This document shows, piece by piece, positions 1,829 through 29,503 of a stretch of 64,000 nucleotides of DNA. The DNA comes from Acidimicrobiia bacterium (GTDB lineage: Bacteria; Actinomycetota; Acidimicrobiia; Acidimicrobiales; AC-14). Under the pieces are notes generated by a model that was given only the letters and a program-made list of their open reading frames with translations, did no database searches and was not told the DNA's origin. The position numbers and the translations under genes are program-made. Numbering within the stretch: the first letter of the stretch is position 1; each line of letters opens with the position of its first letter. The DNA lies in NCBI GenBank assembly GCA_023264995.1, contig JAHFUR010000004.1, forward strand, positions 102,921-166,920, given 5' to 3'.

Positions 1829-3583
1829 GTGCGCTGCGCGGTGGACACGGGTGGGACCTTCACCGACGTGGTGATGGCCGACGGCCGCGTCGCCAAGGTC
1901 CTGTCGACGCCCGACGACCCCGGCCGGGCCGTCCGCGCCGGGCTCGACGGGCGGGTGCCCGACCTGCTGGCCCACGGCACGACGGTGGCCACCAACGCCC
2001 TGCTGGAACGCCGGGGCGCCACCGTCGCCCTGGTCACCAACGCCGGCTTCGCCGACGTGATCGAGATCGGGCGCCAAGACCGGCCGTCGCTCTACGACAT
2101 CTGGGCCGATCGTCCCGCGCCGCTGGTGCCCCGCCGGCTCCGCCTGGAGGTCGAGGGCCGCCTCGACGCCGCCGGCCGGGAGATCGAGCCGGTCGGGCCG
2201 GCGCCTGCGGTGCCCGACGGGGTGGAGGCGGTGGCCGTGTGCCTCCTCCACGCCGACCTCGACCCGTCGCACGAGCGGGCGGTGGCCGCCGGGCTGGCCG
2301 GGTACGACGTGTCGTGCTCGCACGAGGTGTCGCCCGAGTTCCGAGAGTACGAGCGCACCGTCACCACGGTGGTCAACGCCTACCTGCGGCCGCGGTGCCG
2401 TTCCTACCTCCGGGGCCTCGACGGGCTGGCGGCCAAGGTCCTGGTCATGACCTCGGCCGGCGGGCTCATCCCGGCGGCCGACGCGGCCGACCTCCCCGTC
2501 GCCCTCCTGCTCTCCGGGCCGGCCGGCGGGGTGATCGCCGGCGGGGCCGCGGCGGTGGCCGCCGGCTTCGAAGGCGCCATCACCTTGGACATGGGCGGAA
2601 CCAGCACCGACGTCTGCCTCGTGCGCCACGGCGTGCCCGAGCCGGCGGCCGGCCGCCGGGCGGCCGGCTTCCCGATCCGCGTCCCGTCCCTGGACATCCA
2701 CACCATCGGCGCCGGCGGGGGGTCGATCGCCCGCATCGACGCCGGCGGCGCCCTGGTCGTCGGCCCGGAGAGCGCCGGCGCCGTCCCGGGGCCGGCGTGC
2801 TACGGCCGGGGCGGCGTCCAGCCGACGGTGACCGACGCCGACCTCGTCCTCGGCCGCATCCCCGCCGGCGCCGTCTTCCCGGGCCTGGGCGCGCTCGACG
2901 TCGACGCCGCCGGGAAGGCGCTGGCCGACGCCGGCGCCACCGCCGAAGGGGTGGTCGCCGTGGTCGACGCGGCGATGGAGCAGGCCCTGCGGGCGGTGTC
3001 GGTGGAACGGGGCGTCGACCCTGCGGGATTGGCCCTCGTGGCCTTCGGCGGCGCCGGCCCGCTGCACGCGTGCGCCCTGGCCGAGGCGCTGGGGATGGCC
3101 GCCGTCGTGGTCCCGCCGAGGGCCGGCGTGCTGTCGGCCGTCGGGCTGCTGTGCGCCCCCCGCCGGCGCAGCCTGGTCCGCTCGTGGCCCACCCCGGGCG
3201 ACGTCACCGGCCTGGCCGGCGCCCTGGCCGAGCTCGGCGCCCGAGCCGCGGCACTGGTCGGCGCCGGCGCCGAGGTGACCACCTCGGTCGACTGCCGGTA
3301 CGCCGGCCAGAGCCACGAGCTGACGGTGGCCACCGTTGACGACTTCGCCGCCGAGCACGCCCGGCGCAACGGCTACGCCCGGCCGGGCGCACCGATCGAG
3401 GTCGTCGCCCTCCGGGCGTCGGCGACCACGCCCGCCGCCGTGCGGGTGGGCGACCTGCCCCCCGTCGACCGCCGGCCGGCGAGGGGCCCGTGCGTGATCG
3501 CCGAGCCCGACTGCACCATCTGGATCCCCGAGGGCTGGTCGGCCGACGTCGGCCCCGACGGCAGCTACGTGCTCACGTGCTGA
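1829..3583 (+). CDS. Hydantoinase/5-oxoprolinase subunit A (HyuA-like)
   Basis: VRCAVDTGGTFTDVV..., THGTTVATNALLERRG, TLDMGGTSTDVCLV, TIGAGGGSIARID motifs of the HyuA family; GTG start inferred. Confidence 0.92.
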   Translation: MRCAVDTGGTFTDVVMADGRVAKVLSTPDDPGRAVRAGLDGRVPDLLAHGTTVATNALLERRGATVALVTNAGFADVIEIGRQDRPSLYDIWADRPAPLVPRRLRLEVEGRLDAAGREIEPVGPAPAVPDGVEAVAVCLLHADLDPSHERAVAAGLAGYDVSCSHEVSPEFREYERTVTTVVNAYLRPRCRSYLRGLDGLAAKVLVMTSAGGLIPAADAADLPVALLLSGPAGGVIAGGAAAVAAGFEGAITLDMGGTSTDVCLVRHGVPEPAAGRRAAGFPIRVPSLDIHTIGAGGGSIARIDAGGALVVGPESAGAVPGPACYGRGGVQPTVTDADLVLGRIPAGAVFPGLGALDVDAAGKALADAGATAEGVVAVVDAAMEQALRAVSVERGVDPAGLALVAFGGAGPLHACALAEALGMAAVVVPPRAGVLSAVGLLCAPRRRSLVRSWPTPGDVTGLAGALAELGARAAALVGAGAEVTTSVDCRYAGQSHELTVATVDDFAAEHARRNGYARPGAPIEVVALRASATTPAAVRVGDLPPVDRRPARGPCVIAEPDCTIWIPEGWSADVGPDGSYVLTC

Positions 3584-8900: not shown

Positions 8901-9849
8901 CGTCGCCGGCCCGCACCGTCGGGGCGGGCAGGAAGGCGCGGTCGGCGGCGTCGACCGCGGTGCGGGGCAGGGCCAGGGCCTCCACGTCGCCGTCAGGGAG
9001 CTGGGGCTCGGGGAGCGACCAGCGCCGCAGGGCGATGGTCGGGTAGAAGTCCCCCGGCGCCGGCGGCCCCAGCGCCGGGCCGTCGTCGGGGATGGTGAGG
9101 TCGAACACCAGGCCGAGGGCCCGGAGGAGCGCCGGGTGGTGGGCCAGGGCGGCCAGCACGCCGTGGACGTCGAGGCGGTCCGAGGTGGCCCGGGGGTCGG
9201 GGCGGCCCGGCCACGGCCGGTCGCTGCGGTCGGCCCGGCCCGGCTCCCGCACGGCCCGGAACCGGCGCAGGGCCTCGTCCACCGTCGGCGGGTTGGTGGC
9301 CAGCTCCTGGCGCCGGCGGGCCTCGAGTGGCTCGCGGTCGGCCAGGCCCACCCCGCCGAGGTCCCAGTGCCGGCGGTCCTCGTCGAACACCGCCGGGTCG
9401 GGCTCGCCGTGGCGGAGGCGGCCGGTGACCTCGCTCACCTGGCGGGCCGTCGGGACGCGGGCCGGGCTGTACAGGCCGATGTCGGCGTAGCTCTCCTGCA
9501 CCAGGCCGGCGAGGACGGCGGTCGGCGAGCTACGCACGGTGTGGCCCCGGAAGTCGTCGATGGCGAAGTCGTTGACCGGGAGGTCGGGCCGGAGCAGGGC
9601 CTCCCACAGGTCGGGGCGCAGGCCCCCGGTGTCGACGGCCGCCGACCAGGGTTGGCCGTCGATGTCGAAGTACAGGGTCGGGCCGCCGTCGACCAGCCGT
9701 TGCGTCCAGGCCAGCATCCCCGGGAAGTCGGCCAGCACGGCCCCACCCGCCAGCCGGGGGAACACGGCCACGCTCAGCCGGCGGAGGCCGGGGTCGCCCG
9801 GCCCGGGGCCGCCGGGGACGGCGATGAGGACGAGCGTGGTTTCCGCCAT
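5833..9849 (-). CDS. Giant uncharacterised protein (1338 aa)
   Basis: Continuous ORF MAETTLVLIAVPGGPGPGDPGLRRLSV...; starts where the 1085-aa gene ends; no recognised domain. Confidence 0.8.
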   Translation of the reverse strand: MAETTLVLIAVPGGPGPGDPGLRRLSVAVFPRLAGGAVLADFPGMLAWTQRLVDGGPTLYFDIDGQPWSAAVDTGGLRPDLWEALLRPDLPVNDFAIDDFRGHTVRSSPTAVLAGLVQESYADIGLYSPARVPTARQVSEVTGRLRHGEPDPAVFDEDRRHWDLGGVGLADREPLEARRRQELATNPPTVDEALRRFRAVREPGRADRSDRPWPGRPDPRATSDRLDVHGVLAALAHHPALLRALGLVFDLTIPDDGPALGPPAPGDFYPTIALRRWSLPEPQLPDGDVEALALPRTAVDAADRAFLPAPTVRAGDVPRGGVYQGAVLLDPALWSVVPLDVEGAVTKLLSLAERDPAGTAAPDVGVGLPALRSDGLGLASLTQAAEALLAFDRAARIDAALRGAGPEEVLTAAHLTQGYRADVWRESRNSWFSLHRRAQEYDVGGIAWPAEDEGFATAALAQPPEPHRTLDTAEVLVRWTGWSLSVPRPVQPIGREVVPGSAGTEPEGAPPATSPLRVVTSRPAPRSLPGLRFGDRYRVRLRAVDVGGGGLLPDAGSAGAGLPVEPVGRRYLRFEPVAAPVIVTAGATPRLVIDSANLSPADDLVPTAATAVAHLLPPKATVDLVERHGCLDDATGRPRPAAAVHALLAARDVAVDRAATIDDPGIPHLPDPLARGVVLRGLPGVPDGWFGTVDAAGVLRFDENLPIPFDGAEAGAVALPFTGAWPDPVPVKVALVEGSGLPTWDHAQRTLTVGLAKGRRADVAVSSLLGAGDLALLGVWEWFAARLDRDVAAAAGFGGSVVAGDALTDRVATRAHITRLALEGGHWALTPAATLRLVHQVAQPVGAPSLRRFTERDHLPEPDPGTGPFDVVRAAGAHTAELTGGLLVDLPSTGSVTVRAAWTDPVDVPALGPPSRAQRDEAVGRVEIPEGAGVGDLLDAPGTQPTMVVGAGALAWSGEGRIAAVDVARSCPLVHTIGDTRHHLVRYRAQAVSRDAAEQPAGTETTRTSDPVEVHVPSCARPDPPVVVEVVPAFAWDRQHSTDVRTSVRQGRTVRVYLERPWFSSGDDELLGVVCLPAAEALGPRLCNLRDRVSLWGLDGLHGGGDLVPDAPRRWSFPEAVAGADGVYLRQFQRSVDIAGHTVHYDAGTDRWFADVVLDAKLAYTPFVRLVLVRFQPYSVPGREISAPVVVDHLQLSPDRAVTVATLPDDPHRRRVVVTGVGPAAVGIGFGARSFRTGVTVAVEQAAPDLGPELGWEPAPASVATVAGAAQSPPTQAVLWRGEVHLADPAGAGLRLLVTEREYYPSGDGRLPVIFGGLLTGVVPTASRIVFAEAIPLG

Positions 9850-12800
9850 CAGGCGAAGGCCTCGACGTAGTCGTCCCACGCCGCCGGCGTGACGAGCATG
9901 GCGAAGTCGGGGTCGCCGCCGTCGGCCCCGAACGAGCGCTCGACCGAGAGCGACACCGACTTGGAGATCCCGCAGACCGACACGCTGACCTTGACGGTGG
10001 CCGACCCGTGCACCTTGTCGTGAGCCAGGTCGTAGCCCAGCTCCAGGCGGAACACGACCGACACGGTGACGATGCCCAGCACCGACACGTAGCCCGACGC
10101 CTCGAAGAACCCCCCGATCACCGCCGACGGCTTGTCACGGTCGTAGGTGAAGTAGATCCCGGCCATGATCCGGACGCCGCCGGAGGCGACGCCGATGTCG
10201 AGCTGGAACTCGCCGCCGAACTCGATGGCCGCGTCGAGGGCGCGGATGCCCGCGGTGTCGACCTCCAGCTCCAGGTAGCCGCCGCCGCCGAGCAGGCTGA
10301 TCGTCAGCACGAACGGGTGGTGGCGGTCGGCCACCCCGAAGCGCAGCGCCGGCCGGCCGTCGACCAGCGGCAGGGTGACGCCGGTGGTGAGGCGGACGTC
10401 GTGCAGCGAGAAGACGGCCAGGCCGAAGGGCGGCAGGGCGATGGCCTCGTCGACCCTGACCGCGCCGGCGTCGACGGAGATGGTCGGCCCGCCCGGGCCG
10501 CCCAGGAGCGACGAGAACGCCTGCAGCTTCTCCTGCACGTCGGCCAGGAAGCCCAGCGGCCCGACGAACTCGACGGCGCCGAGCTTCACGTCGACGGTGG
10601 TGGCGTCGCTCCCGGTGCTGGTGAAGCGGAACTCGGCCACGTCGACGCGGACGGCGCCGGCGATGGTGACGGCCAGGTGCCTGACCACGCCGGTCACCGT
10701 GGTCGTGCCGGTCGTGCCGTCGAGCGATCGGCGGATGGTGGCCCGCAGGTCGAGGCTGGCCGCGGCCCGGTCGACCTTCACGAACGGCGGGAGGTCGAGG
10801 GCTGCGCCGTCGATGCTCGGCGCCCAGCTCAGCTCGGTCACGACCGCGCCCGGCTCCTGGTGGCTGGCCACCTTGGGCGCCTGGCCGGCGATGGCACCCG
10901 GGTTGACCAGCAGTTTCAGGGGCACGACGCCGAACAGCGTGGCGTTGCCCGGGAAGAACCCGGCGGGGTTGAACGTGCCCGCGACCGCCGAGGCCACCGT
11001 CGGGCCCAGCTCGCGCGACAGGGCGCTGGGGGCGAACTCGGGCAGGGCCACGCCGCCGGCGGCGGCCGCGGTCAGGCCCAGGCCGGCCAGCCCGGCGGCC
11101 TCGGGGGCGACGGTGGCCCACACGCCTGCGCCGGCGGGGCCCGACGCCACGTAGCCCGGGTCGAAGCTGATCCGCCGGCGGGCGTGCTCGGGCCCGGACA
11201 GCTTGGCGATGTCGGGCACGACCACGTCGGCGCCGGCGACGATGGGCACCCACGCGTTGGGCCCGCCGGCGCCGGCCGTCGCCGCCAGCGTGAACGAGTT
11301 GAGGCCCACCGCCGTCTCGGTCCGACCGGGTGCGGCCGGTGCCGCCATCGTGACCCGCTGGCCGCCGACGGTCGCGACGGGAGCGGCCTTCGTATAGGCG
11401 TCGGCGACCGCCGCCATGTCGCCCGCCTTCTCCCACATCCGCATGGGGACGAAGATCATCGGCGTCGTGAACGTGAACCGTTCCGGGGCGGCGTCGGTTG
11501 AGGCGCAGGCGAAGGCCACGGGCACGCTCGACGTTTCCGTGCTCACCTGGATCCAGAACGCCTGGGTACCGCCCACCTGGGTGGTGGCCGGGTCGGTCAG
11601 GTGGGGGGTGCGCTCGGTGAGCACCTCGAACCGCCGGCCGAACGGGAAACCCCTGGCCTGGGCGGCGCTCAGCCGGATCTCGCGTAGGCGCTGGCGGCGG
11701 ATGACCAGGGTGTACAGGAAGAGGTTCGAGACGGGTGCCCCGCCGCCGCCGGGGCGCTCGATGCGCCGCTCCATGACGTCGATCCGGACGGCCCGGTGCC
11801 CGGTCGGGAAGAGCGCACCCTCGGTGGCGATGACCACGTACTGGTCTCGGCCGAACACCGCGTCGTGCGACCACAGGCTCAGGTCGGTCGGCTCGGCCCG
11901 CTCCTTGGGCAGGAGCGCGCCGAGGTCGACCGCCGTGGCCAGGACGGCCGACACTTCGTCGCCGTGGCGCTCGAGCGCTTCGGCCAGGCGACGGTCCCGT
12001 TCGCCGGCCGTGCCCGGTCCACGCTCCACCAGGGTCGCGTCGACCTGGAGCACGGCGTGCTCGAGCAGGAGCCGGACCCGTTCGAAACGGTCATGGGGCG
12101 CCGGCACTGCGCTGTCGTCCCACTGGCCCTTCAACCGGACGGACGCACCCAGTGCCGACAGGAACAGCCGGCTGGCCTCGGCCGGGCGGGGCTCGAAGGC
12201 CCGGTGCCGGGACACCAGCTCGTCGCCGACCCACCGGCGCAGGGCCCGCGGGACCGCGACCCGCTCCCGGACCAGGCCGGCGCCGGCGCCGGTCCCCCCG
12301 CCGCCGGTCCCCCCGCCGCCGGCGCTGGGCTCGTAGACCTCGTAGCCGCTGAAGCCGGACATGAGCGTGACCAGCTCGTGGCGGTGGGCGGGATTGGGCA
12401 GGCTCCGGAACGGCACCATGGCGTCGAGGTCGGCCCAGGTGCGGTCCGGTGACCGCCAGTCGGGCGACCAGACGGCCCGGACCGCCACCGGCTCGGCCGA
12501 GCTGGCCGGCGTCACGGCTCCGCCGTCCTGGTGGCCGAGGGCGGCCCGCCACAGCTCGGTCCGGCCCGCGCGGGCCACCGCGGATGCCGCCGTGGTCCAG
12601 CCGCTCCCCGCCTCCGGTGACATGACCAGGCGCCAGGGGAGCTCGATGGCCGTCTCGTGCGCCGCCGGCGGCGCGATCGGCGGCGGGGCGGCGGGCGTCG
12701 CCCGGCTGGCCGGGGGGACGACGAGGGTGAACCGGTGCCAGGCCAGGAGGTCGTCGATCGTCAGCGGGATGGGCAGCAGAGCGTCGGGGACCGAGAACAC

Positions 12801-19665: not shown

Positions 19666-20984
19666 TGGCCGCCACCGAGTCATTCAACGTCGTGATGCCG
19701 CAACTCGGCGAGACCGTCACCGAGGGCACCATCACCCGGTGGTTCAAGAAGGTCGGGGACCAGGTCGTCGAGGACGAGCCGCTCTTCGAGGTCTCGACCG
19801 ACAAGGTGGACTCCGAGGTGCCGGCCGCCTCCGGCGGCTACCTCGCGGAGATCCTGGTCGAGGAGGGGGAGACGGTCGACGTCGGTGCCCGGCTCGCAGT
19901 GATCGGCGTCGCCCCCGGCTCGGGCAACGGCGCCGCGCCAGCGCCGGAGCCGGCCGAGGCGCCCGTCGCGGCGGTCCCGCCCCCCGTGGCCCCGCCGGAG
20001 GTCGTGCCCGCGCCCGAGCCGGTGGGACCGGCGCCGGAGGCCTCCGGCAACCCCAGCCGCAAGGTCCTGTCGCCCCTGGTCCGGCGGCTTCTGGCCGACA
20101 ACAACCTGGACGCCGACGAGATCGAGGGCACCGGCATCGACGGGCGGGTCACCCGCAACGACGTGATGGCCCACCTCGACAAGGGCGGCGCCCGCGCCGG
20201 CGCGCCCAAGCCCGCCGCCGCCCCCACCCGGACCGCCGTCGCGCCGGCGGTCGTGCCCGCACCCCGCGCCGGCGCCGACGAGGTCATCCCCTTCACCAAC
20301 ATCCGCAAGCGCACCGCCGAGCACATGGTGCGGTCGCAGGCCACGTCGGCCCACGTGCTGATCGGCATGGAGGTCGACTTCGACGGCGTCGACCGGGTCC
20401 GGCTGGCCGAAAAGGACGCGTTCAAGGCCGAGGAGGGGTTCTCCCTCACCTACCTGCCCTTCGTGTCCCGGGCCGTGGTCGACGCCATCCGCGACTTCCC
20501 CCACGTCAACGCGTCGGTCGGTGACAACGCGCTGATCGTCCACCGCGCCGTCCATCTCGGCATTGCCGTGGACATCAACTTCGAGGGCCTGATCGTCCCC
20601 GTGGTCCACGATGCCGACGGCAAGCGCATGCGGTCGATCGCCCGGGAGATCTCCGACCTGGCCGGGCGCGCCCGCAGCAAGAAGCTCAACGCCGACGAGA
20701 TCTCGGGCAGCACGTTCACCATCACCAACCCGGGTGGCTACGGCACGTTCTTCACCGCGGCCGTCATCAACCAGCCCCAGGTGGCCATCCTCTCCACCGA
20801 CGGCGTGCGCAAGCGCCCCGTCGTGGTCCAGCTCCCCGACGGGAGCGACGCCATCGCCATCCACCCGGTGGGCACCCTGGCCCTCACCTTCGACCACCGG
20901 GCCTTCGACGGCGCCTACGCGTCGGCCTTCCTGGCCCGCTGCCGCGACATCATCGAGACCCGGGACTGGTCCCAGGAGCTGTGA
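19665..20984 (+). CDS. sucB: Dihydrolipoamide acyltransferase (E2, 2-oxoglutarate dehydrogenase type)
   Basis: N-terminal lipoyl domain (STDKVDSEVPA), E3-binding SPLVRRLLADNNLD, catalytic FDHRAFDGAYA. Confidence 0.9.
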   Translation: MAATESFNVVMPQLGETVTEGTITRWFKKVGDQVVEDEPLFEVSTDKVDSEVPAASGGYLAEILVEEGETVDVGARLAVIGVAPGSGNGAAPAPEPAEAPVAAVPPPVAPPEVVPAPEPVGPAPEASGNPSRKVLSPLVRRLLADNNLDADEIEGTGIDGRVTRNDVMAHLDKGGARAGAPKPAAAPTRTAVAPAVVPAPRAGADEVIPFTNIRKRTAEHMVRSQATSAHVLIGMEVDFDGVDRVRLAEKDAFKAEEGFSLTYLPFVSRAVVDAIRDFPHVNASVGDNALIVHRAVHLGIAVDINFEGLIVPVVHDADGKRMRSIAREISDLAGRARSKKLNADEISGSTFTITNPGGYGTFFTAAVINQPQVAILSTDGVRKRPVVVQLPDGSDAIAIHPVGTLALTFDHRAFDGAYASAFLARCRDIIETRDWSQEL

Positions 20985-22567
20985 GCCTGGCCGCACCGGC
21001 GGGCGCGGCCGGCGCACCGCTCCGGGCTCGCTGGCTCGGACGGGCCCGCTTCACCGACGCCCACGCCCTGCAACGGGCCCTGTTCACGGGTACCACCGAC
21101 TCGTACCTGCTCCTCCTGGAGCACCACCCCGTCTACACCGTCGGCCTGCGGGGCCCGCTCGACCACCTGCGGGTGCCCGCCGGCGACCTGGGCGCCGACC
21201 TCGTCGCCACCGACCGGGGCGGCGACGTCACCTGGCACGGGCCGGGCCAGCTCGTCGGCTATCCCATCGTCTCCACCACCGCCTCGCCCAAGGACCACGT
21301 CCGGGCCGTCGAGCAACTGGTCATCGACGTGTGCGCCAGCCTCGGCCTCCCCGGTCTCGGTCGGGCCGAGGGGGCACCCGGCGTCTGGGTCGACCCCGCC
21401 GGCGCCCGCCCCCGCAAGATCTGCGCCATCGGGACCCGCCGGTCGAGGGGCCGGACCATGCACGGCTTCGCCCTCAACGTCGACCCGGACCTGTCGTGGT
21501 TCGACCGGATCGTGCCGTGCGGCATCGCCGACCGGGGCGTGACGTCGCTCGCCGCCGAGGGCATGACGGTCGACATGCGCACCGTCGTCGACGCGGTCAT
21601 CGAGGCGGCCGCCGGCCGGTGGGGCGACGGCACGGTCGACCGGGCCGACGTGTCCTGGGAGCGGGAGACGCCGGCGGGCATGCCCGTGGCCACCCGCAAG
21701 CCCGAGTGGCTCCGGGTCAAGGTCGACCTGGGAACGGGGTACCGCGACGTGAAGCGCACCATGCGCTCGCGCCAGCTGGTCACCGTCTGCGAGGAAGCCG
21801 GCTGCCCCAACATCTACGAGTGCTGGCGGGACGGCACGGCCACGTTCATGATCAACGGCGAGCAGTGCACCCGGGCCTGCGGGTTCTGCCAGGTCGACAC
21901 CAGCAAGCCGATGCCCGCCGACCCGGCCGAGCCCGAGCGGCTGGCCGACGCCGTCGCCGAGATGGGCCTGGCCCACGCCGTCATCACCGCCGTGGCCCGC
22001 GACGACCTGCCCGACGGCGGCGCCGGCGGGTTCGCCGAGTCCATCCGGGCCGTCCGCCGGCGGAACCCGGCGACCGCCGTCGAGGTGCTGGTCCCCGACT
22101 GCAAGGGCGACCCCGGTGCCCTGGCCACCATCTTCGACGCCCGGCCCGACGTGCTGAACCACAACCTGGAGACCGTCGCCCGGCTCCAGCGCCACGTGCG
22201 GCCGTCGGCGTCCTACGCCCGGAGCCTTTCGGTGCTGGCCCGCGCCGCGGCCGCCGGCCTGGTCACCAAGTCGGGGCTCATCCTCGGCCTGGGCGAGTCG
22301 GAGGACGAGGTGCTGGCCGCCATGGTCGACCTCCAGCGGGTGGGTGTGTCCATCCTCACCCTGGGCCAGTACCTGCGCCCGTCCGCCGCCCACCTGCCCG
22401 TCGCCCGGTGGTGGGCGCCGGCGGAGTTCGACCGGCTGGCCGCGGCCGGGCGGGCCATGGGCTTCGCCCATGTCGAGGCGTCACCCCTCACCCGGTCGAG
22501 CTACCACGCCCGCCAAGCAGCGTCCGCGGCCACCCCTGTCGAACTGGTGACACGAACGGGGCGTTGA
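20981..22567 (+). CDS. Bifunctional fusion: octanoyltransferase (LipB) - lipoyl synthase (LipA)
   Basis: LipB: DRGGDVTWHGPGQLVGYPI, RKICAIG...HGFALNVDPDLSWFDRIVPCGI. LipA: VCEEAGCPNIYEC, CTRACGFCQVDTSKP, LNHNLETV, TKSGLILGLGES, RSSYHA. One uninterrupted frame; GTGA overlap with sucB. Confidence 0.95.
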   Translation: MSLAAPAGAAGAPLRARWLGRARFTDAHALQRALFTGTTDSYLLLLEHHPVYTVGLRGPLDHLRVPAGDLGADLVATDRGGDVTWHGPGQLVGYPIVSTTASPKDHVRAVEQLVIDVCASLGLPGLGRAEGAPGVWVDPAGARPRKICAIGTRRSRGRTMHGFALNVDPDLSWFDRIVPCGIADRGVTSLAAEGMTVDMRTVVDAVIEAAAGRWGDGTVDRADVSWERETPAGMPVATRKPEWLRVKVDLGTGYRDVKRTMRSRQLVTVCEEAGCPNIYECWRDGTATFMINGEQCTRACGFCQVDTSKPMPADPAEPERLADAVAEMGLAHAVITAVARDDLPDGGAGGFAESIRAVRRRNPATAVEVLVPDCKGDPGALATIFDARPDVLNHNLETVARLQRHVRPSASYARSLSVLARAAAAGLVTKSGLILGLGESEDEVLAAMVDLQRVGVSILTLGQYLRPSAAHLPVARWWAPAEFDRLAAAGRAMGFAHVEASPLTRSSYHARQAASAATPVELVTRTGR

Positions 22568-25256: not shown

Positions 25257-25399
25257 CTCGTCGCTCCTTCCGGTTGGACGTAGTGGCCCCTGCGGAACTT
25301 CTCGACCGATGCGGCGGCGACCTTGAGTGATGCGTCGGTCTCCGAACCGGCCCGTGTGTGCAACCTGTTGTGTTCCAAGCCTATGCGAAACTCGGCCGG

Positions 25400-26260
25400 G
25401 TGATCCGCCTCGATGCCGCCACGGTGCTCCTCCAGTGGGCCACTGGCGGTCTCCTGTTCCTCTGGGTCACCACTCGCCGCCGCGAGGTGGGGATCGGCTA
25501 CGGCTGGTTGCTCCGGATCGTCTACGCCCTCCTGGCCCTGGGCGCCGCCGGCGCCGGCCTGCTGCTGGACGCCGTCCCGGTCCGGGACGCGGCGTCCCTG
25601 GGCGTGGTCGCGGCCGCGGGCGTCGCCCTTGGCGTGTCGATCGTTCGCCGCAAAGCCGGCGTGGCCGGCGAGCGGGCCCGCAAGGAACGCAAGGCGGCGA
25701 GGGTGGCGGCCATGACCGGCGCGCCCGCTGCCGCCTCCCACGTCGGTGCCGCGGCCGGAGCCGTCCGGGAGTTCCCGCCGGCGCTCGACCTCGTCGCCCC
25801 CCTCATCGGCCTGGTCGGCCTGGTCGCGGCCGGGATCGCCGCCGGCGGGCCCCACCTCCTGGCCGTGGCCCGCACCCTGGCCGGGGCGCTCTTCCTGGGT
25901 GCGGTGTCCGATGCCATGCTGCTCGGCCACTGGTACCTCGTGCAGCCCGGGCTGGGCCGGGGGTCGCTGCTCGAGCTCAACCGCTGGCTGGCGCTGACCT
26001 GGCCACTTGAGGTCGCCCTGCTCCTCTGGCCGACCGGGATGCTGTCCGTGCTCTCCGGCTCGGTCGACGACGGGTGGGACGGCACCCTGGGCTGGTTCTG
26101 GGTGGCGTGCGCGGTGGCCACCCTGGTCCTGACCTTCGTGACCCAGGCCGCCCTGAAGGAGAAGGCGTACTCGGCCGTCATGGCCGCCACCGGGCTCCTG
26201 TACCTGGCCATCCTCACCGCCTTCGGCACCGACCTGGTGGCCCGCGCCATCCTGGCCTAA
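25400..26260 (+). CDS. Polytopic membrane protein, uncharacterised
   Basis: Multiple TM segments; VIRLDAATVLLQWATGGLLFLWV...; start uncertain (25358 or 25400). Confidence 0.7.
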   Translation: MIRLDAATVLLQWATGGLLFLWVTTRRREVGIGYGWLLRIVYALLALGAAGAGLLLDAVPVRDAASLGVVAAAGVALGVSIVRRKAGVAGERARKERKAARVAAMTGAPAAASHVGAAAGAVREFPPALDLVAPLIGLVGLVAAGIAAGGPHLLAVARTLAGALFLGAVSDAMLLGHWYLVQPGLGRGSLLELNRWLALTWPLEVALLLWPTGMLSVLSGSVDDGWDGTLGWFWVACAVATLVLTFVTQAALKEKAYSAVMAATGLLYLAILTAFGTDLVARAILA

Positions 26261-26350
26261 GGGGGCGCGTATCAGGGCCGCCTCCTGAGAACTCCCTGCT
26301 GGGACGTCGTCGCTCATGGACGGGCGGCGCAGGAATGGCGGGAGACCACG

Positions 26351-28831
26351 ATGACATCGCCGAGGGCCCAGCTGACCGACTTCACGAAGGACGTGCTCGG
26401 GCGGTACGTCTGCAACGGCCTCGACGAGGCCCTGGCCAGCGCGAACGCCGGCAACGGACGCCCCGACGCCCGGCCGTTCGACGTGATCGTGATCGGTGGC
26501 GGGTCGTTCGGGCCCATCTTCGCCGAGCACCTAGCGGTCGCCGACACGGCCCACAGCCATCGGGTGCTGGTGCTCGACGCCGGCCCGCTGTCGCTCCCCG
26601 AGCACGTCCAGAACATGCCGGCGGTCGGCCTGGGCGTCCCCGACCCGGCCGTCGGCGACCCCGGTCCCCGCGCCGAGGTCTGGGGCAAGCCGTGGGAGTC
26701 CGACGTCGCCTTCCCCGGGCTGGCCTACACCCTGGGCGGGCGGTCGATCTTCTTCGGCGGGTGGGCCCCCGAGCTGTTGGAGTCGGAGACCACGGCCTGG
26801 CCGGCCTCGGTCCTGGCCGACCTTCGCTCGCCGCTCGCCAACGGGTCTGACCCCTACTTCCGTCAAGCCAGCGAGCAGATCGGGGTCACCGAGACCAACG
26901 ACTTCGTGTTCGGCCCCCTGCACGAGGCGCTCCGCCAGCGTCTCTTCGCCGGCATCAAGGCCAATCGGGTCGGGGCCGCCGTGCCCCTTGACAGCGCCGA
27001 CCTGCCCCTGCACCTCGACGGCATCCCCGCCGGCGACGTGGAGATCAGCAAGCTCGAAGCACCGCTGGCCGTGCAGGGGCGGGCACCCCGCTCGGGGTTC
27101 TTCCCGTTCAGCAAGTTCAGCTCCGTCCCGCTCATCATGCAGGCGGCTCGCGCCGCGGCCGCCGAGTCCGGCAACGACGACGTCAAGAAGCGGTTCATGG
27201 TCGTGCCGGGCTGCCACGTCGTCCGGCTGGAGACCGAGCCCACCTCCACCGGCGTCCGGGTCACCAACATCCTCACCAGCAAAGGCTCCGTCCCGGTCCC
27301 CCACGGAGCCAAGGTCGTCATCGCCACCGGCACCATCGAGAGCACCCGGCTGGCCCAGATCTCCTTCCCGCTGCTGCCCAACCGTGGTCTGGTGGGGACC
27401 AACCTGATGGCCCATCTCCGTTCCAACCTGACCATCGCCATCCCGACCAGCTCGCTGCCGGCCGGCCTGGGCAACGAGCTGGCCACCTCGGCCCTGTTCG
27501 TCAAGGGCCGCTACCAGTTCGACGCCACCACCACCGGGCACTTCCACCTCCAGATCACCGCCGCCGGGCTCGAGAAGCCCAGCGGCGACTCGGAGGCCGA
27601 GCTGTTCAAGAACAACCCGGACGTGGACCTGTTCGAACGGTTCCGGCACGCCACGGACACGACGGTCGTGGTCACGATCCGGGGCATCGGGGAGATGCAG
27701 CCCCGCAACCCCGAGAGCCACGTCTCGCTGAACGGCAACGTCGACGAGTTCCAGATGCCCCGGGCCGTGGTCTCCATGGGCGACCCCAAGGGCCCGCCGA
27801 AGCCGGGTGAGAGCGCCCAGACGGCGACCGACCGCGCCCTTTGGGCGATCATGGACCAGGCCGCCGACGACGTGGCTGCGGTGCTGGCCGGCGGCAAGGC
27901 GTACCAGGTCCTGGTCAACCGGACCACGTTCGCCCCGGCCGCCGCCGGCCAGGCGGCGTCGGAGATCCTCCCGTTCTCGGCCCGGCGCGACGGGCTGGGC
28001 ACGACCCATCACGAGGCCGGCACCCTCGCCATGGGCGAGGACCCCACCACCTCGGTCACCGACCCCGACGGGCGCTTCCACTACGTCGACAACGCCTACG
28101 TCGCCGGGCCGGCCCTGCACCCGACGGTGGGGTCCCCCAACCCCATGCTCACCGGCACCGCCCTGGCCCGGCGGCTGGCCGACCGGCTCGGACGACCGGC
28201 CCCGTTCACGGCCGACCCCGGCTTCACCGCGCTCTTCGACGGGTCCGACGCGTCGAAGTGGAAGATGTCGACCATCCGCAACCAGCCCGGCCACGACGAC
28301 CCGGGCCGGTTCCTCGTCGTCGACGGCGGGTTCGAGGCGGTCACCGGCACGGACATCGGGCTGTTCTGGCACACGGTCCCCACGCCGGCGGACTTCCTGC
28401 TCCGCCTCGAATGGCGGCGCTGGACCGACGCCGACAACTCGGGGGTCTTCCTCCGGTTCCCCGACCCCGGCTCCAAGGGCTTCGACAACACCGCGTTCGT
28501 GGCCGTGCGGTTCGGCTTCGAGGTGCAGATCGACCAGCTGGCACGCGACGACGGCGCCGGCGTGCACAAGACCGGCGCCATCTACGACCTGGCCGCGCCG
28601 TTCGCCCCGGCCGCGCTCCCGGTCAACCCGCCGGGCGAATGGAACCTGTTCGAGATCCGAGCCGTCGGCCAGGTCTACGACGTGGCCCTCAACGGCGTCC
28701 CGGTGACCCACTTCGTGAACACCGACCCGGCCCGCGGGCTGCCGACGGCGCCGGGCGCGCCCAGCTTCATCGGCCTGCAGGCCCACACCGGCCGGGTCGG
28801 CTTCCGGCGGCTGCAGATCAAGGCGCTGTGA
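26351..28831 (+). CDS. GMC-family oxidoreductase fused to C-terminal DUF1080 (3-keto-disaccharide hydrolase family) domain
   Basis: N-term FDVIVIGGGSFG..., LGTTHHEAGTLAMG, ALHPTVGSPNPMLTGTALARRLAD; from about 28220 GFTALFDGSDASKWK, LLRLEWRRWTDADNSGVFLRF, FEVQID, KTGAIYDL, PPGEWNLFEI. Confidence 0.92.
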   Translation: MTSPRAQLTDFTKDVLGRYVCNGLDEALASANAGNGRPDARPFDVIVIGGGSFGPIFAEHLAVADTAHSHRVLVLDAGPLSLPEHVQNMPAVGLGVPDPAVGDPGPRAEVWGKPWESDVAFPGLAYTLGGRSIFFGGWAPELLESETTAWPASVLADLRSPLANGSDPYFRQASEQIGVTETNDFVFGPLHEALRQRLFAGIKANRVGAAVPLDSADLPLHLDGIPAGDVEISKLEAPLAVQGRAPRSGFFPFSKFSSVPLIMQAARAAAAESGNDDVKKRFMVVPGCHVVRLETEPTSTGVRVTNILTSKGSVPVPHGAKVVIATGTIESTRLAQISFPLLPNRGLVGTNLMAHLRSNLTIAIPTSSLPAGLGNELATSALFVKGRYQFDATTTGHFHLQITAAGLEKPSGDSEAELFKNNPDVDLFERFRHATDTTVVVTIRGIGEMQPRNPESHVSLNGNVDEFQMPRAVVSMGDPKGPPKPGESAQTATDRALWAIMDQAADDVAAVLAGGKAYQVLVNRTTFAPAAAGQAASEILPFSARRDGLGTTHHEAGTLAMGEDPTTSVTDPDGRFHYVDNAYVAGPALHPTVGSPNPMLTGTALARRLADRLGRPAPFTADPGFTALFDGSDASKWKMSTIRNQPGHDDPGRFLVVDGGFEAVTGTDIGLFWHTVPTPADFLLRLEWRRWTDADNSGVFLRFPDPGSKGFDNTAFVAVRFGFEVQIDQLARDDGAGVHKTGAIYDLAAPFAPAALPVNPPGEWNLFEIRAVGQVYDVALNGVPVTHFVNTDPARGLPTAPGAPSFIGLQAHTGRVGFRRLQIKAL

Positions 28832-28850
28832 CCCCGGCTGGCCGGGTCAG
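28832..28850. terminator. Short imperfect hairpin between convergent genes
   Basis: TGACCCCGGC-TG-GCCGGGTCA between stop of 26351..28831 (+) and stop of 28847..29503 (-). Confidence 0.35.
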
Positions 28851-29503
28851 ATGTCGACGACGCCCCGCAACGTCACCAGCTCGAACAGCGGGCTCACCTT
28901 GGCACCGGTACGGAAGAGCGACTCGGCCGGCGCGGCGTCGGCCGACAGGTGGCTGAGCATGGCCGCGCCCAGGTACAGCGACACGATGGCGAAGGCCAGG
29001 TCATGGCTGGGCACGAGCGGGCCGAGGCTGGAGCCGGCCATGACCCGGACCACGGCCTCCTCGGTGAAACTGATCCACGGCTCCATGCGGGCGGCGATGG
29101 CCGGGCCCAGCTCCGGGATGGCCGAGGCGCCGGCGATCATCTCGGCCAGGACCTTGATGTGGCCGCCGGCCAGATCCTCCTGATAGGCCTCGCTGGCCAC
29201 GGACAGGAGCTCGGGCAGGGTGGTGACCGAGCCGATCGCCGCCCGGTAGCGGGCCATGCGCACCGCACTGGTGTGGTCGAGGGCGGCGACCAACAGGTCG
29301 TTCACGCTCCCGAAGTGGTAGAAGACCAGCGCCTGGTTGAACCCGCCCGTCGCGGCAATGGCTCGGGCGCTGGTGGCCGCGAAGCCCCGCTCCTTGATGG
29401 TCTGCACGGCCGCCTCGACGATGCGCTGGCGGGTGCCCTCACGGATGGAGCGGGCGACCGCCCCGTTGGGCCCGGACTTGGCCAAAGCAGTTGCTCCGAT
29501 CAT
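28847..29503 (-). CDS. TetR/AcrR family transcriptional regulator
   Basis: TRQRIVEAAVQTIKERGFAATSARAIAATGGFNQALVFYHFGSVNDLLVAAL N-terminal HTH. Confidence 0.93.
   Translation of the reverse strand: MIGATALAKSGPNGAVARSIREGTRQRIVEAAVQTIKERGFAATSARAIAATGGFNQALVFYHFGSVNDLLVAALDHTSAVRMARYRAAIGSVTTLPELLSVASEAYQEDLAGGHIKVLAEMIAGASAIPELGPAIAARMEPWISFTEEAVVRVMAGSSLGPLVPSHDLAFAIVSLYLGAAMLSHLSADAAPAESLFRTGAKVSPLFELVTLRGVVDI

Follow-up and report, generated by a model that had tools for sequence, protein, structure and literature searches.

Can a single protein both oxidize a glycoside and cleave it? Glycoside cleavage by oxidation followed by elimination has only lately been recognized as an alternative to the classical glycoside hydrolases, and the examples known so far are mainly split gene sets. 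In the window, by which we mean the whole analyzed stretch of 64,000 nucleotides of contig JAHFUR010000004.1 from an Acidimicrobiia bacterium, one gene encodes a GMC oxidoreductase joined to a DUF1080 domain. The original prediction was that this protein oxidizes a glycoside at C3 and then cleaves the 3-keto product. The gene, its parts, and its immediate surroundings are as follows.

25358..26260, plus strand: flanking membrane protein gene, conserved, outside the system
26261..28864, no strand: segment missing from the same-genus genome G300 (homology break)
26351..28831, plus strand: GMC-DUF1080 fusion gene, 826 aa (ORF and Pfam; architecture kept in seven homologues)
26351..26479, plus strand: N-terminal leader, residues 1-43, consensus TxFTKDVLGRYICN-xxEA (family alignment)
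26480..26512, plus strand: FAD-binding dinucleotide motif DVIVIGGGSFG, residues 44-54 (hhalign to ordinary GMC proteins)
26735..26764, plus strand: GGRSIFFGGW motif, residues 129-138 (family alignment, hhalign)
27782..28168, plus strand: GMC_oxred_C, PF05199, residues 478-606 (Pfam, 1.6e-16)
28010..28012, plus strand: predicted GMC catalytic His H554, motif GTTHHEAGT (invariant, 8/8)
28139..28141, plus strand: predicted second GMC active-site residue N597, motif GSPNPMLTG (invariant, 8/8)
28169..28219, plus strand: linker between the Pfam domains, residues 607-623
28220..28822, plus strand: DUF1080 (3keto-disac_hyd), PF06439, residues 624-824 (Pfam, 4.4e-32)
28436..28444, plus strand: NSG motif, residues 696-698 (conserved in the family)
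28520..28534, plus strand: E-x-Q-x-D motif, E724/Q726/D728 (conserved in the family)
28784..28786, plus strand: H812 in the LQ-x-H motif, equivalent of the BT2157 His (alignment with 9fbe)
28847..29503, minus strand: flanking convergent TetR-family gene (Pfam; conserved in sister genomes)

As first noted, there is one continuous reading frame, located exactly at 26351-28831 on the plus strand, which starts with ATG and encodes 826 amino acids with no internal stops. A conserved leader precedes the GMC flavoprotein domain (residues ~44-612), and after a short linker comes the full DUF1080 domain that had been claimed, matched over all 187 positions of the PF06439 profile (1-187 of 187). The GMC signatures had also been called complete. 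This holds by motifs and by profile-profile alignment, but the proposed HMM search gave PF05199 and PF06439, both scoring well above the Pfam cut-off, and no PF00732 call on the fusion protein. In the family of eight described below, PF05199 and PF06439 are each matched in every protein and PF00732 is called in one, at 0.0035. Alignment of the family GMC domain with ordinary GMC proteins covers 548 columns (hhalign probability 100, E 1e-59) and runs from the FAD motif through the C-terminal His/Asn motifs. The glycines of the FAD motif are invariant in the family, as are G129, G130, S132, G136, G137, and W138 of the GGRSIFFGGW motif, whose aligned counterpart in ordinary GMC proteins is the GG motif. 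H554 aligns with their active-site His. No loss of catalytic residues was seen, since every one of the eight proteins has H554 and N597 and the most conserved DUF1080 positions are present.

The search for the same architecture gave seven homologues, each with the GMC domain followed by the DUF1080 domain and with a similar junction. Full-length relatives came from a genome scan (Nitrosospira, 55% identity; a Chitinophagales MAG; a Verrucomicrobia MAG) and from plasmid records (Rhizobium leguminosarum and Nostoc), and two more were found in the window's own phylum, in genomes G267 and G292; the contig carrying the G267 copy (L010) ends inside its DUF1080 domain. The fusion is thus spread over Pseudomonadota, Bacteroidota, Verrucomicrobiota, Cyanobacteriota, and the window's phylum. 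The connection between the domains (residues 602-628) measures 26 to 29 amino acids in six of the eight proteins and 35 in the other two. That the fusion is an assembly join, a frameshift product, or a decaying pseudogene would fit with its being missing from sampled close relatives, but the intact reading frame, the order and junction shared with seven homologues, the retained catalytic residues, and the clean insertion between conserved genes refute this reading and leave it a negligible probability. The fusion is a genuine conserved architecture. Its two domains have diverged together (pairwise divergences correlated, Mantel r 0.78, p 0.012), and the window and Nitrosospira proteins are sisters in both the GMC and the DUF1080 tree. 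The second domain is not obligatory, which counts against a bifunctional reading: two GMC genes without DUF1080 (L012 and L068) nest within the fusion clade, so that it can be lost or gained; L068 adjoins an IS and is 5'-truncated. On the Azospirillum plasmid p5 there is a remnant (L031, 5031-5834) that consists of the GMC C-terminal motif and the DUF1080 domain only. It adjoins an M4 peptidase gene, and an M4 peptidase is also found near the Nostoc fusion.

The fusion family is rare and horizontally mobile. Within the window's phylum, 299 genomes were sampled and three hold the fusion (G267, G292, and the window genome); the same search gave a fusion-type GMC gene in G028, and all further matches were DUF1080 only. 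Among 198 genomes of the window's class the window genome was the sole match, and in the phyla of three homologues (299, 246, and 250 genomes) the seed genome itself was the sole match each time. Scans of viral contigs with the full protein and with each domain alignment gave no further relatives, nor were any found in phage records. In the same-genus genome G300, homology stops at 3417 and restarts at 3443, corresponding to window positions 26259 and 28865, and the flanking membrane protein and tetR genes abut. This indicates an insertion of about 2.6 kb that brought in the fusion gene alone. Of 21 related genomes, 18 carry the flanking membrane protein gene; these are otherwise without the fusion. 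The Rhizobium leguminosarum and Nostoc copies sit on plasmids, transposase genes are present in the Nostoc region, and the G292 copy is flanked by ISL3 transposases. A gene that moves alone is what would be expected of a self-sufficient enzyme. In another genome of the same genus (G299; L065, 3357-5062) two other ORFs, one of them sigma-factor-like, occupy the slot of the fusion, and this slot is possibly a variable cargo site.

The neighboring genes in the window encode an M24 peptidase, an SDR protein, a membrane protein without a Pfam match, and TetR. An operon with the upstream M24-SDR-membrane genes was considered and rejected, since the genus keeps these genes where the fusion is missing. 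No gene is common to most fusion loci, and the lack of shared substrate-specific neighbors counts against the reading that we prefer. The stand-alone GMC relatives on plasmids have no consistent sugar-lyase partner beside them. In the Rhizobium leguminosarum plasmid locus (L029), the end of the fusion ORF lies within an overlap with a GH13-family ORF (9415-11322). A GH13 protein near the Nostoc fusion shares 26% identity with this GH13 ORF, a distant relationship. Directly upstream of the Nostoc fusion lies an ORF for a DyP-type peroxidase, a single case, which would fit H2O2 made by an oxidase. Deriving the substrate from these distant GH13 neighbors and this peroxidase was dropped as too thin.

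What does the DUF1080 domain do? It keeps N696-S697-G698, E724, Q726, D728, Y745, W764, N765, N781, Q810, and H812, which rank among the most conserved positions in 41 domains of the family. An AlphaFold2 model of the domain alone (pLDDT 87.4, pTM 0.88) has the DUF1080 fold: in a Foldseek search its best 18 PDB matches were all DUF1080-family structures, and they include 8rr2 and 9fbe, titled eliminase/hydratase, and 8tda and 8v31, titled hydratases. The domain could instead be a noncatalytic, lectin-like, sugar-binding module through which the GMC oxidase reaches its substrate, given that the fold is concanavalin/CBM66-like and that lectins and CBM66 appear lower in the fold search. We consider this quite improbable, because the family-conserved positions, H812 included, are retained, none of the best 18 matches is a carbohydrate-binding module, and there is no sign of secretion, where such a module would help most.

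The prediction had the domain acting as a 3-keto-disaccharide hydrolase. The family assignment stands, but plain hydrolysis is the less likely outcome: the closest characterized DUF1080 enzymes are eliminase/hydratases by their PDB titles, so that elimination plus hydration is the better prediction. The structures 9fbe and 8rr2 are both of BT2157, and the sole difference in the aligned domain is a His-to-Asn change at MQDHG. For this enzyme, the H275N variant is described as missing hydration activity and retaining elimination, as it still eliminated 4-nitrophenyl 3-keto-alpha-glucoside (PMC13273386). From the position and kind of the change, we infer that the His altered in 9fbe is H275. H812 of the fusion aligns with this position, and the His is present in six of the seven fusions with a complete DUF1080 domain. 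The Chitinophagales fusion (L006, 6001-8349) has Phe there and may lack hydratase activity, which counts against the reading that we prefer. The tree places the fusion domains with ThuA-type DUF1080 (96/92), away from the BT2157-like ones, and function is therefore carried over within the family but across subclades. A related possibility is that the GMC domain oxidizes glycosides, cleavage happens spontaneously or elsewhere, and DUF1080 mainly hydrates the released 2-hydroxy-3-keto-glycal. The hydratase titles of 8tda (BT2) and 8v31 (AL2), the retention of the hydration-linked H812, and the spontaneous deglycosylation of FAD-GO products, most readily in base (PMC4650693), are in line with it; it is made unlikely by the eliminase/hydratase titles of 8rr2 and 9fbe, obtained for one and the same protein, and by the elimination that H275N still performed.

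The GMC domain is harder to place. Its PDB sequence matches, to glucose dehydrogenase and pyranose oxidase, are weak and come essentially from the C-terminal motif, and phmmer matches to characterized sugar oxidases are essentially limited to the C-terminal and FAD motifs. Close kinship to any characterized C3 oxidase was not found by phmmer, which also counts against our preferred reading. As these matches are weak, we infer the C3 regiochemistry from the fusion partner. In FAD-GO of Rhizobium a single catalytic residue, His493, takes the proton of the C3-OH, and GMC enzymes of the FAD-GO/GlycDH type oxidize the C3-OH of many glycosides through one such His (PMC4650693). A mutagenesis primer for FAD-GO reads APGMGI-H-EMGTAR (PMC4650693), with E-x-G-T after the His as in the fusion, and the common H-E-x-G-T context is suggestive of a similar role for H554. 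The GMC domain might also act on a nonsugar alcohol, or at C1 or C2 of a free sugar, with DUF1080 working on a keto product other than a 3-keto-glycoside. GMC enzymes span widely differing chemistries, and among the nearest solved ones are glucose dehydrogenase, pyranose oxidase, and HMF oxidase; such an activity is nevertheless improbable, as the fusion partner indicates 3-keto sugars and DUF1080 genes adjoin the C3-oxidizing LacABC dehydrogenase in operons (PMC9007349).

Taken together, we consider that the fusion is probably a bifunctional oxidative glycosidase of the cytosol. Binding FAD through residues 44-54 and using H554 and N597 as its active-site pair, the GMC domain would oxidize a sugar hydroxyl, most likely the C3-OH of a small glycoside, to give a 3-keto-glycoside, and FADH2 would pass its electrons to O2 or a soluble acceptor. 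On its short linker, the DUF1080 domain would take over the 3-keto-glycoside, pull the now-acidic C2 proton so that the aglycone leaves by beta-elimination, and finally hydrate the glycal. That both steps reside in one protein was the core of the original prediction. The complete domains, the key residues, and the conserved fusion support it in part; the C3 oxidation is derived indirectly, and elimination with hydration replaces hydrolysis as the likelier chemistry. Elsewhere, each of the two domain types has a role in 3-keto-glycoside chemistry (PMC9007349, PMC4650693, PMC13273386). A full-length AlphaFold2 model built from four sequences reached a pLDDT of 37 and was set aside; it counts against the proposal. 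Inspection by eye showed no signal peptide in the N termini of the family, in agreement with the earlier remark that none was obvious, and this makes a cytosolic location plausible. That the protein is a mobile, single-gene, self-sufficient enzyme of the cytosol, in which the 3-keto intermediate may pass directly between the two sites, is a tentative extension that we consider possible but would not yet call probable.

The closest parallels are LacABC with separate DUF1080 proteins and the GSDH-ThuA-DUF1080 proteins of the window's phylum. Genetic evidence links DUF1080 with the lactose 3-dehydrogenase LacABC, and in Caulobacter LacABC with CCNA_01705 and CCNA_01698 likewise pairs a C3-oxidizing dehydrogenase with a DUF1080 enzyme, acting on disaccharides (PMC9007349). 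There, the genes are separate, the three-part dehydrogenase is membrane bound, and the DUF1080 protein is putatively periplasmic (PMC9007349), whereas the fusion is one polypeptide without a visible signal peptide; LacB/LacC partner subunits were not found by Pfam among the genes neighboring it. The GSDH-ThuA-DUF1080 proteins (L072, L073, and L074) also carry a sugar dehydrogenase and DUF1080 in one chain, which argues for the bifunctional reading, and their DUF1080 domains are the nearest relatives of the fusion domain in the tree. Their dehydrogenase is of the GSDH type rather than a flavin enzyme, and they have extra ThuA, PKD, and CBM6 domains (1265 to 2281 aa); Pfam finds no GSDH or ThuA domain in the fusion protein. 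These three proteins represent an independent dehydrogenase-DUF1080 fusion. BT2157 of Bacteroides thetaiotaomicron (PDB 3osd, 8rr2, 9fbe, 8tda) shares the DUF1080 family, the fold, and the active-site His, but it stands alone, is "probable secreted" by its PDB molecule name, and belongs to another subclade. FAD-GO/GlycDH of Rhizobium sp. GIN611, likened by its His motif context, is a GMC flavoprotein oxidizing the C3-OH; it has no fused cleavage domain, and cleavage is spontaneous or due to the unrelated Mn-dependent AtOGE (PMC4650693, PMC10628242). In the C-glycoside systems CarA-CarBC and PurA-PurBC, C3 oxidation is followed by lyase cleavage of the glycosidic bond, as proposed here, but the CarBC/PurBC lyase is separately encoded, has two subunits, and is not described as DUF1080 (PMC12724307). 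No paper that mentions DUF1080 together with "GMC oxidoreductase" came up in a literature search.

With a natural fusion, the coupling of oxidation and elimination becomes explicit and can be tested in one protein, and the fusion could possibly serve as a one-enzyme biocatalyst for hydrolase-resistant glycosides. DUF1080-fused GMC proteins gain a testable function, among them the Nostoc fusion, which is labeled "family 16 glycoside hydrolase" in the public record. Elsewhere in the window, a second apparent fusion was observed: a single 528-aa ORF (20981-22567, plus strand) reads as LipB (octanoyltransferase, residues 13-211) joined to LipA (lipoyl synthase, residues 237-517).
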